44,576 nucleotides of DNA from an uncultured Bacteriovoracaceae bacterium (GTDB lineage: Bacteria > Bdellovibrionota > Bacteriovoracia > Bacteriovoracales > Bacteriovoracaceae). The stretch spans positions 1-44,576 of the forward strand of contig CALHLC010000027.1 of the NCBI GenBank assembly GCA_938034385.1, in the 5' to 3' direction. Both the position numbers and the translations under genes were made by a program. Each line of letters begins with the position of its first letter. Within the stretch, counting starts at the first letter, position 1. Below, piece after piece: positions 1 through 3,577 of the stretch. Below the pieces are notes generated by a model. The model saw nothing but the letters and a program-made list of their open reading frames with translations, was not told the DNA's origin and ran no database searches.

Positions 1-12
1 AGGAGTGCAAAT

Positions 13-621
13 ATGATATATGAAACAGCATTTGTTTTAAAGCCATCTTCTACTGATGATGTCGGAACTAAAGTCAAAGGACTAGTAACGGCAGCTATTA
101 CTGAAGCAGGCGGAGAAGTTTTAATTAATGAAGATTGGGGATTGAGAAATTTTGCTCAAGCCACAAGTAAAGGTGAAACTAAAGGTAAGTTCTATTACCT
201 AATGTATTCTTCAGACGGGAAATCAAACACTGAGATTGAAAGAAGAATGAAGCTTTCAGAGGAAACTTTGAAGTGGATTGTTGTAAAGCTTGGTGATGAT
301 AAGAACAAGGAAAACATTGTAAAGAATCACAGAAATCCAAACAATGAAGTTGTAGAAAAAGATGCAGGTAAAGCTGAAAAAGATAAAAGAAATTCAGCAA
401 AATCTAGATCTTGTTATTTCTCAGCAACCAAGACTAGACCTGATTGGAAAGATCCGATGAGTTATAAGTGGTTAGTAAATGAGTTTGGAAAAATTAATCC
501 AGGTAGAGTTACTGGTTTAAGACCAAGATATCAAAAGATGGCTACTACAGTGATTAAGCAAGCTAGAACGATGGGATTTATTTCTCACCTTTCTAACAGA
601 GTTTCTGAGCGAGTTCAGTAA
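13..621 (+). CDS. rpsF-rpsR: Ribosomal protein S6-S18 fusion
   Basis: Two small-subunit ribosomal proteins are encoded as one 202-residue chain. Residues 1-97 look like S6 (start MIYETAFVL, then TKGKFYYLMY). Residues 98-130 are a Lys/Asn/Glu-rich linker. Residues 131-200 look like S18, with the conserved core GKINPGRVTGLRPRYQ at 159-174 followed by IKQAR. In other bacteria S6 and S18 are separate neighbours that bind each other on the platform of the 30S subunit. No stop codon separates the two halves here and the frame is continuous. An AGGAG sequence at positions 1-5 gives good spacing to the ATG. The gene heads the cluster leading to L9 and DnaB. Both identities are clear; whether the chain is cleaved after synthesis cannot be seen. 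Confidence 0.93.
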   Translation: MIYETAFVLKPSSTDDVGTKVKGLVTAAITEAGGEVLINEDWGLRNFAQATSKGETKGKFYYLMYSSDGKSNTEIERRMKLSEETLKWIVVKLGDDKNKENIVKNHRNPNNEVVEKDAGKAEKDKRNSAKSRSCYFSATKTRPDWKDPMSYKWLVNEFGKINPGRVTGLRPRYQKMATTVIKQARTMGFISHLSNRVSERVQ

Positions 622-635
622 AAAGGTTATCTGGA

Positions 636-1616
636 TTGAAAGTAGAAACGCATTCACCTATTCAAAGTAATCAAAGTTACATGAAGCTTATGATGATGGG
701 GTTAATTTATTTCATATTTAATTATGGAATATTTACCGCTTTATTTGCTCCTATACCTTTGGTTGTTGCAGCTCTTAGTTTTGGAAGATCCAAAGCTTAC
801 GCGGTTGGAGCATTTTGCTTAGGTTGTATTTTTCTAGCTTCAATCTTTATCTTTCAATCTTATCAAGTTTTTTCTCTCGGAGTATTTTCTTATCTTGTTG
901 CAATAGGCGTTAGTGAGATGATGATTAGAGGAATTCATCCAATGAAATCTATTCTAATTCTAGGCTCAATAATTTGTGCGTTTTTTGCAATAACTACAAG
1001 TTTATCAATTAACCAAGGGTTTTCACCTGCAAGTTATATTGAAAACTCGTTAGTTGAGACTAAGAAACTAATCGTAGAGAATAAAGACTATCAAAAAAAT
1101 AAAGAAAACTTTAAGCCAGTGATGGAGTTTTTAAATACTCCTAAAGAGTCAGCGGCGATTGTTTTAAAAACAGTTCCACTATATGCTTATGCGGCAATAT
1201 TTTTAAGTATTTGGGGAATCTTTTATTTTATTTTGAAGTCTTATCATTTTTACTCTTTGCCCGAATATTTAAAATATTCTGAAGACGCTTTGAAGAACTT
1301 CAGAATGTCTGATTATTTTATCTTCCCAGTGGCGCTTTTTTTAGCACTTTATGTTTTTTCCGATAAACTTGGAGGAAATTGGGGGTATATCGGTCAAATA
1401 GGTCTTTTTTCTCTTGGAGTATTTTACTTCATGCAAGGGTTTGGAGTCTTAATGGCTTACCTTGATAATTTTAAGATAGTTGGATTTTTTAGAACATTTA
1501 TTGTGATTGCAATATTTGTTTTAGCACCTTTTTTTCTATGTTCACTTGGACTATTTGATACATGGTTTGATTTTAGAAAAAAAACAAAAAATAAATTAAG
1601 TAATAAGAAATTATAA
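636..1616 (+). CDS. DUF2232-like integral membrane protein
   Basis: This is a polytopic inner-membrane protein of unknown function with roughly eight hydrophobic segments spread over its 326 residues and a basic C-terminus. The start is a TTG 14 bases after the S6-S18 stop, preceded by AAGG, so translation is probably coupled. Position between rpsR and rplI is where DUF2232 (YybS-like) proteins occur in many delta-type proteobacteria and Firmicutes. The family call rests on that position, the length and the membrane topology rather than on a catalytic motif. A role in membrane or cell-envelope functions is only a guess. Confidence 0.7.
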   Translation: MKVETHSPIQSNQSYMKLMMMGLIYFIFNYGIFTALFAPIPLVVAALSFGRSKAYAVGAFCLGCIFLASIFIFQSYQVFSLGVFSYLVAIGVSEMMIRGIHPMKSILILGSIICAFFAITTSLSINQGFSPASYIENSLVETKKLIVENKDYQKNKENFKPVMEFLNTPKESAAIVLKTVPLYAYAAIFLSIWGIFYFILKSYHFYSLPEYLKYSEDALKNFRMSDYFIFPVALFLALYVFSDKLGGNWGYIGQIGLFSLGVFYFMQGFGVLMAYLDNFKIVGFFRTFIVIAIFVLAPFFLCSLGLFDTWFDFRKKTKNKLSNKKL

Positions 1617-1631
1617 AATTAGGAGTTTACG

Positions 1632-2231
1632 ATGAAAGTAATATTAACAGAAAAAGTAAAAAGTTTAGGAGGCGTTGGAGAGATTCATAACGTTAGTCCT
1701 GGATTTGCTAGAAATTTTCTTCTACCAAATAAGTTTGCAAAAATTGCAGATGAAGGTAATGAAAAAGCTCTTGCTGATCAAAAGAAAGCACTTGCTAAGA
1801 AAATCTCAGCTGAAAAAGGTGAAGCTGAAGGATTAAAAGCAAAGCTAAATGGTATCAGTGTAACTATAGAGAAAAAAGTTGGTGGAACAGGGAGATTATT
1901 TGGAACTGTAACAGGTAACGATTTATCTAAAGCATTAGAAAAAGAAGGTCTTAACGTTGAGAAGAGACAAATTCTTATTGAAAATCCAATTAAGCAATTA
2001 GGAACTTTTGAAGTTAAAGCTAAGCTTTTTTCTGAAGTTGAAGCTGTATTTAATGTTATAGTGAAAAAAGATGCTAAGCAGATTGAAGAAGATGCTAAGA
2101 AAGCTAAGCTTAAAAAAGAAGTTCAAGAGCATGAAGCACAAATGGCTAAAGCTGAAGCAGAAGCTGCTAAAGCAGAAGAAGCAAAAGCTGAAGGTAGCGA
2201 AGAAGCTAAAACTGAAGAAACTGATAAGTAA
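1632..2231 (+). CDS. rplI: 50S ribosomal protein L9 with charged C-terminal tail
   Basis: L9 binds 23S rRNA near the base of the L1 stalk and reaches across to neighbouring ribosomes. The N-terminal signature is clear (GGVGEIHNVSPGFARNFLLP, residues 13-32), followed by the long connecting helix and the C-terminal domain up to about residue 148. The protein is 199 residues, about 50 longer than usual. The extra tail (about 150-199) is Ala/Glu/Lys rich and probably forms a charged helix. AGGAG at 1621-1625 precedes the ATG. The gene lies 15 bases after the membrane protein and directly before dnaB. Confidence 0.96.
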   Translation: MKVILTEKVKSLGGVGEIHNVSPGFARNFLLPNKFAKIADEGNEKALADQKKALAKKISAEKGEAEGLKAKLNGISVTIEKKVGGTGRLFGTVTGNDLSKALEKEGLNVEKRQILIENPIKQLGTFEVKAKLFSEVEAVFNVIVKKDAKQIEEDAKKAKLKKEVQEHEAQMAKAEAEAAKAEEAKAEGSEEAKTEETDK

Positions 2232-2233
2232 TA

Positions 2234-3577
2234 ATGATTAAAGAGATGCCTCATGATTTATTGGCTGAAAAGTCACTCTTGGGGTGTCTCTTAATTGATT
2301 CTCATTGTTTTGATCTCATTAGTGAGAGCAATCTTGATGAGAAAGATTTCTACGACCCTAAATACCAACATGTTTTTAAAAGTATTCGAGAACTTCACGC
2401 AGCTTCAACTGCTATTGATTATGTCAGTGTTTGCTCTAAGCTTGATGATTTCGGAAAACTTGAATCTATTGGTGGAAAAAGCTTTATTTTAGACCTTATT
2501 GAAGATCAAGCATCAACTGCACACGTTGATCATTATGCAAAAATTGTAAAAGACAAAGCAGTGACTAGAGAAATCATTAGAACTGCTTCTCGAGTGATTG
2601 AAACTGGAACGAAGTTTAATGGAAACGTTGAAGATTTTATTTCTGATGTGGAAACAAATTTTTTCAAATTAACTTCTGAAACAAGAACAGGAAGTTTAAG
2701 ACATATTAAAACTTATTTGAAACAAAGCCTTAAGAGCTTAGAAGACGTAAGTCGTAAAAAAGGGGAGATCAGTGGTCTACCTACTGGTTATATGGCCCTT
2801 GATAAAAAACTTTTAGGACTTCAGCCTGGTCAGTTAGTTGTTATGGCAGCAAGACCTGGTGTTGGTAAGACATCTCTTGCTTTAAATATGATGGTGAATT
2901 CTGTTAAGCACACAGGATTACCAGCCGTTATTTTCTCACTGGAGATGTTAGGAGATGAATTAACAAATAGATTAATTAGCTCTGAAGCATCGGTTGATTC
3001 TGAACGAATGAGAACGAAAAACTTTTTAGATTCTGATCTTAGAAGTATTGGTAGTACGGTTCAAACTTTATCTCAATTGCCAATTCATATTAATGATAAT
3101 GCGTCAGTTAATATTTTTGATATTAAAAGTCAGTGTAGAAAAGTAAAAATGGAAGAAGGGTTAGGGATAATCGTGATCGATTACCTTCAACTTATGCAAG
3201 GTTCAAATAAATCTATTAGTCGTGAGCAACAGATTTCTGAAATCTCTAGGGGACTTAAAAACCTTGCTAAGGAACTGGGATGTCCTGTACTAGCACTGTC
3301 TCAGTTAAATAGAGCAGTTGAATCGAGACCTGACAAAAGACCTTTAATTTCAGACTTGAGAGAATCAGGTTCTATTGAGCAAGACGCCGATATTGTTATG
3401 ATGATTTATAGAGATGAGATGTATAACCCTGAATCTAAAGATAAAGGGATAGCTGAAGTTATTATTGCTAAAAACAGAGCAGGTGAGCGAGGTACGGCAA
3501 AACTGGCATGGATCGGATCTCAAACGAAATTTGCTTCTCTTTCTAGCAATTACGAAGATAATGAAACCACTCATTAA
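2234..3577 (+). CDS. dnaB: Replicative DNA helicase DnaB
   Basis: This is the hexameric ATP-driven helicase that unwinds DNA ahead of the replisome. The N-terminal domain (about 1-110) begins MPHDLLAEKSLLGCLL, typical of DnaB. The RecA-like domain has Walker A (ARPGVGKTS, residues 206-214), Walker B (IIVIDYLQLM, Asp316), and the conserved SQLNRAVESRPDKRP and LRESGSIEQDADIV stretches. Its 447 residues match the usual size and no intein is present. It starts two bases after the rplI stop and its TAA stop shares one base with the next ATG, so it belongs to the ribosomal protein operon. Confidence 0.97.
   Translation: MIKEMPHDLLAEKSLLGCLLIDSHCFDLISESNLDEKDFYDPKYQHVFKSIRELHAASTAIDYVSVCSKLDDFGKLESIGGKSFILDLIEDQASTAHVDHYAKIVKDKAVTREIIRTASRVIETGTKFNGNVEDFISDVETNFFKLTSETRTGSLRHIKTYLKQSLKSLEDVSRKKGEISGLPTGYMALDKKLLGLQPGQLVVMAARPGVGKTSLALNMMVNSVKHTGLPAVIFSLEMLGDELTNRLISSEASVDSERMRTKNFLDSDLRSIGSTVQTLSQLPIHINDNASVNIFDIKSQCRKVKMEEGLGIIVIDYLQLMQGSNKSISREQQISEISRGLKNLAKELGCPVLALSQLNRAVESRPDKRPLISDLRESGSIEQDADIVMMIYRDEMYNPESKDKGIAEVIIAKNRAGERGTAKLAWIGSQTKFASLSSNYEDNETTH

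Follow-up and report, generated by a model that had tools for sequence, protein, structure and literature searches.

Most members of the bacterial class Bacteriovoracia encode the ribosomal proteins bS6 and bS18 as a single continuous polypeptide, the product of a fused gene referred to here as rpsFR. Few separate genes in bacteria are as well conserved as those for ribosomal proteins. No description of an S6–S18 fusion was found in the open-access literature, where most subscription journals are absent, and, as far as we found, a stable fusion of two ribosomal proteins across most of a class is undescribed so far in the literature searched: the parts are known and their arrangement is new. 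We favour, at a probability of about 0.6, the reading that an obligate heterodimer has been replaced class-wide by a zinc-free single chain, which would serve both as the assembly unit of the ribosomal platform and as the repressor of its own mRNA, with the dimerisation step removed from both.

A single frame encodes both ribosomal proteins

The window, that is, the whole stretch of 44,576 nucleotides analysed here, makes up all of contig C27 in a genome of 2.67 Mb that is 99.3% complete and comes from an uncultured member of the Bacteriovoracaceae, a family that NCBI places in Bacteriovoracia, Bdellovibrionota. Its first gene is a single open reading frame whose product has a computed mass of 22.95 kDa and a pI of 9.7 (Table 1). 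The Pfam profile Ribosomal_S6 (PF01250) matches residues 3–92 over model positions 2–90 of 90 (E = 1.3e-15; 57.7 bits against a cut-off of 27), and Ribosomal_S18 (PF01084) matches residues 141–190 (E = 2e-12; 47.4 bits against a gathering cut-off of 21). Among the NCBIfam models, TIGR00165 (S18) scores above its cut-off (45.4 against 38.75 bits) and TIGR00166 (S6) just under its own (39.1 against 42.9 bits). Identity to the Escherichia coli proteins is 27% over 95 columns for the bS6 domain and 37% for the bS18 domain. The best Foldseek matches of the predicted structure are bS6 chains, with TMt up to 0.94; the search reveals only the bS6 fold because chains are compared singly, and no chain spanning both halves is among the PDB chains listed. 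An earlier note on this DNA had proposed a natural S6–S18 fusion, which is borne out by the single frame with both Pfam domains and by its intact state across the class (below). The limits given there for S6 (residues 1–97) and for a 33-residue linker (98–130) stand, and the end of S18 moves from residue 200 to 202.

Table 1. Features at the start of the window.
Feature	Position	Strand	Basis
Putative leader operator, 3′ end	1..12	+	SD AGGAG at 1–5; GAG at 3–5 can pair with upstream CUC
rpsFR, fused bS6–bS18	13..621	+	Single ORF, ATG to TAA, 202 aa
bS6 domain, residues 1–97	13..303	+	PF01250, E. coli S6 alignment, Foldseek
Linker, residues 98–130, NKENIVKNHRNPNNEVVEKDAGKAEKDKRNSAK	304..402	+	33 residues, 15 charged
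bS18 domain, residues 131–202	403..618	+	PF01084, TIGR00165, E. coli S18 alignment
DUF2232 membrane protein (PF09991)	636..1616	+	Profile match; operon context
rplI (bL9)	1632..2231	+	Pfam and NCBIfam matches
dnaB replicative helicase	2234..3577	+	Profile match

The downstream order DUF2232–rplI–dnaB corresponds to the usual rpsF–rpsR–rplI region. The bL9 encoded here carries a C-terminal tail of about 50 residues past the usual domain, rich in K, E and A.

No second rpsF or rpsR was found above the cut-offs in the rest of this 99.3%-complete genome, including the independent rpsR that the earlier note had named as one of the observations that would refute the fusion. An apparent extra S6 copy at the end of contig C8 proved to be an exact 136-bp overlap of C8 with the window contig, and the same applies to contig C57 of G003, a genome of the same genus. 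In both genomes the contigs (window 1–136 and the end of G000:C8 at locus L063; C57 and C78 of G003) break at the identical place inside rpsF, with the 136-bp overlap. The two fused proteins are 98% identical. The identical breaks suggest either a shared branch of the assembly graph or a common data source.

The fusion is found in most of Bacteriovoracia

Searches covered first 98 relatives and then the whole class as delimited by GTDB (129 genomes, all assigned to one family, 119 of them with a match). An intact, full-length fused frame is present in 110 of the 119 matched genomes, and in three further genomes (G011, G107 and G160) the frame is fused up to where the contig breaks off. By genus, the fusion occurs in 41–42 of the 46 matched in the class. 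Chance is excluded, because the continuous frame has been kept across more than 40 genera.

In 294 pairs of close relatives, many of which lie within one genus and are hence non-independent, third codon positions account for a share of the differences that is 0.68 for S6, 0.64 for the linker and 0.82 for S18, compared with 0.33 expected without coding selection. For the linker, the differences at codon positions 1, 2 and 3 number 1545, 1073 and 4689. This pattern indicates that S6, linker and S18 are all under protein-level selection. It also bears on the idea that a stop codon was simply missed in a metagenome bin, for which one could cite the draft contig that starts 12 bases before the gene. 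Such an assembly or sequencing artefact is refuted by the codon-position bias of the linker and by the same frame in 110 genomes, including complete or near-complete assemblies of one (G159), two (G005) and five (G051) contigs, and we give it practically no weight.

In five genomes of four genera of the class (G004, G022, G028, G132 and G031), rpsF and rpsR are separate and have individual start codons. Those of the five that were read base by base have a gap of about 11 to 60 bases between rpsF and the rpsR that follows it. Elsewhere in the phylum, about 230 genomes were covered and showed no fusion, their genes being separate; the only non-class matches that cover both halves (G071 and G302) have a stop codon between them. 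Adjacency of rpsF and rpsR extends to several outgroups. One single-protein search of genome contigs beyond the phylum returned only relatives of Bacteriovoracia. The fusion had been put forward as a possible lineage marker: it can serve as one for Bacteriovoracia, given the 110 of 119 genomes, and not for Bdellovibrionota overall, in view of the roughly 230 genomes with separate genes.

Two loci depart from the common pattern. G029 (L024, G029:C61) has an in-frame TAA in the linker, followed by a fused-type, zinc-free S18 that has no start codon after the TAA; this may reflect an assembly error, recoding or a recent re-split. G050 has, in addition to the fused gene, a second, distant S6 gene (L166, G050:C102) that resembles those of other Bdellovibrionota more, and is possibly a contaminant of the bin.

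A probable single origin and loss of the zinc motif

The unfused genera were placed on a tree of RpoB from 50 genomes (rpoB is missing from G004, which is therefore absent), in which the base of the class is a near-polytomy. Unfused genera occupy the basal positions in the class, and the fused genomes form two groups of 15 and 23. When the tree was constrained to unite all fused genomes, its log-likelihood was 2.46 better than that of the free tree (p-AU 0.565), so a single fusion event is compatible with the RpoB tree. One genome, G038, has a second rpoB-like frame (G038:C12:14-3943) that is only about 53% identical to the normal rpoB beside it; it is either contamination or a divergent copy.

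The fusion probably arose once, near the base of Bacteriovoracia, when neighbouring rpsF and rpsR genes lost the stop codon that had separated them. In the unfused relatives read base by base, the N-terminal extension of S18 (FDKDKRM..KRRSCWFC) is similar to the end of the linker in fused proteins. The linker therefore seems to be the sum of a bS6 tail and the charged extension at the N-terminus of bS18, and we infer that it derives from these older parts.

All five unfused relatives (G004, G022, G028, G031 and G132) have CWFC plus a C-x-x-H pair in S18. A CxxC zinc motif is found at none of the 79 loci with a fused-type S18; C134 is the only invariant cysteine of the fused proteins, and the S18 half encoded in the window has no other zinc ligands. 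The motif was probably lost on the same stem as the fusion or soon after it. Because there is a single evolutionary contrast, the pattern shows that loss and fusion are associated, not that either caused the other.

The residues expected to contact RNA and the partner protein have been retained. K182 and R185 align with K60 and R63 of E. coli S18, and W145 and K146 align with its interface pair Y23/K24, Y23 being W here; all four positions are invariant in the 46 aligned fused proteins. In E. coli, K60 and R63 of S18, which were tested by mutation, contact conserved cytosines in both the rRNA and the rpsF leader (PMC4647458).

These observations also frame a neutral account, in which the fusion is real and uncleaved, and the loss of the stop codon became fixed through drift, after which it could not easily be reversed. 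The genes are adjacent in unfused relatives and in several outgroups, so one mutation could join them, and the tree agrees with a single origin, which leaves no repeated fusion from which to argue a benefit. Set against this are the near-universal retention of the fusion in the class, with in-frame linkers of many lengths, and the coincident loss of the zinc motif, which suggests some functional adjustment. We consider neutral fixation a serious possibility, if one that we would not back at even odds.

The product is probably one uncleaved chain

Linker length ranges from 32 to 47 residues across relatives; the frame is always kept and the middle is poorly conserved. The conserved parts are a K-x-x-x-P segment after bS6 and a basic stretch before C134, and no short invariant motif was found in the middle of the linker among the 46 aligned fused proteins. 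An AlphaFold2 model built with 46 fused sequences has a mean pLDDT of 84.5 and a pTM of 0.79, and residues 114–117 are its sole stretch below 50. This confident two-domain model is suggestive of paired bS6 and bS18 domains.

A low-confidence, charged and length-variable middle would suit a cleavage site, and the product could be a polyprotein whose linker is cut by a protease, leaving two ordinary proteins on the ribosome. The eukaryotic fusions of ubiquitin to S27a and L40 are a precedent for such processing and share with rpsFR a natural fusion that includes a ribosomal protein. They differ in that ubiquitin is joined to one ribosomal protein and the chain is cleaved, whereas rpsFR links two ribosomal proteins that share a ribosomal site. 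The linker has no short invariant motif in its middle, and its conserved parts read as extensions of the domains. A housekeeping cut for every ribosome would require a conserved protease. Cleavage is thus unlikely in our judgement.

Separate synthesis of S18 by internal initiation in the linker, with a dosage other than 1:1, appears more improbable still. Many relatives do have an in-frame methionine in the linker, mostly 7 residues before the conserved cysteine, but a Shine–Dalgarno (SD) sequence is almost always absent there, and 29 of 78 fused loci have no start codon in the stretch tested. The window gene itself has no in-frame ATG, GTG or TTG from the end of S6 up to M149, which lies inside the S18 fold. 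Since the genome has no other rpsR and this gene no internal start codon, synthesis is one-to-one. The suggestion in the earlier note that the fusion fixes a 1:1 dosage accordingly holds for synthesis, this being the sole rpsF and rpsR.

A compact leader precedes the fused gene

According to published work, bS6 and bS18 dimerise before binding to 16S rRNA prepared by S15, and the dimer is the effector in the repression of rpsF (PMC4647458). A putative operator is also found upstream of rpsFR. In the window it is represented by its 3′ end, with the SD sequence AGGAG seven bases 5′ of the ATG; the remaining leader of this genome lies on contig C8 (L063:1366-1419) and matches a covariance model at 44.1 bits (E about 1e-13). 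Further upstream on C8, L063:1-1266 contains an open reading frame for a repetitive protein of the GGLVGY/GGFIGR type, which looks like a surface protein.

The leader consists of a CUC, a variable hairpin closed by G–C pairs, a short unpaired stretch with CC(A/G) at its end, and the GAG of the SD sequence. At all 53 loci searched with the covariance model, including the window genome and the unfused G031, it ends at the start codon; the model has no match in the unfused G022 and G028. Aligned with MAFFT and without fitting to any model, 44 leaders contain 62 two-sided pair changes compared with 21 in shuffles. The realigned set has 109 double-change cells compared with 36.5 in shuffles, and is 90% paired compared with at most 60% when slid; covariation is seen in eight of nine hairpin pairs, in an alignment biased in favour of the structure. 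The SD-pairing stem hardly varies, and covariation therefore lends it no support.

RpsF_leader (RF02893) of Rfam, to which the bS6:bS18 complex binds (PMC4647458), shares with this element a hairpin and an SD-pairing stem, a CC bulge before the SD sequence (CCG in E. coli) and an end at the rpsF start. It differs in that the SD-pairing stem has only three pairs (CUC:GAG) here and that the expected ligand is a single chain. No Rfam family, RF02893 included, matched the leaders of 20 loci at E ≤ 1, although RF02893 was found in the E. coli control (110 bits); reciprocally, our covariance model R1, built from relatives, has no match to the E. coli leader. As neither model detects the other leader, homology rests on layout, position and the CC beside the SD sequence, and the Bacteriovoracia leader may be either a diverged relative or an analogue of RpsF_leader. 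Weaker matches in two outgroup families (L066:780-833, E = 0.007; L071:2975-2920, E = 0.046) lie just before rpsF, so a leader of this compact form may be older than the fusion.

Discussion

Judged from the conserved sequences, it is likely that a pre-tethered 1:1 bS6–bS18 unit both builds the platform of the 30S subunit and acts as repressor of its mRNA. This 23-kDa polypeptide with a flexible charged linker, encoded by the only rpsF and rpsR of the genome, would stay uncleaved. Its two domains would fold back on each other as a normal bS6:bS18 heterodimer, a view helped by the AlphaFold2 model and by the invariant interface and RNA-binding residues. In a single step, the tethered unit could then bind the h22/h23a platform of 16S rRNA as remodelled by S15. 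Excess unit would bind the leader, at the CC bulge beside the SD-pairing stem, and prevent translation of its mRNA, in the way that the two-chain heterodimer acts in E. coli.

The fused system has both domains, the order rpsF–rpsR–rplI and the interface and RNA-contact residues in common with the separate bS6 and bS18 of E. coli and Bacillus subtilis, and differs from them in its single polypeptide, its linker of 32–47 residues and, here, a DUF2232 gene before rplI. A ribosomal protein also forms one domain of a larger bacterial chain in NF011110, an NCBIfam fusion of a signalling protein with bL9; its partner is non-ribosomal and the fusion is unrelated to rpsFR, and the model matched the neighbouring L9 far below its cut-off.

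Unlike the E. coli proteins, the fused chain has no free S6 C-terminus and no free S18 N-terminus. In E. coli, the S6 C-terminus is the site of glutamylation by RimK and the S18 N-terminus that of acetylation by RimI. The fusion thus predicts that both modifications are lost in these ribosomes. GNAT and ATP-grasp matches occur in all genomes tested, and no genome of the class reaches the RimI cut-off. Several fused genomes, not including that of the window, have matches above the RimK-family cut-off, and these probably act on other substrates.

NCBIfam models S6 and S18 separately, and the S18 cut-off is the only one of the two that the window protein exceeds, so fused proteins may well be filed in databases simply as ‘S18’ or ‘S6’. 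The fusion also affects ribosomal-protein marker sets and naming pipelines. For the lineage itself, the fusion is a candidate synapomorphy of most of Bacteriovoracia. It also offers a natural experiment on whether bS6–bS18 dimerisation limits platform assembly or autogenous control.
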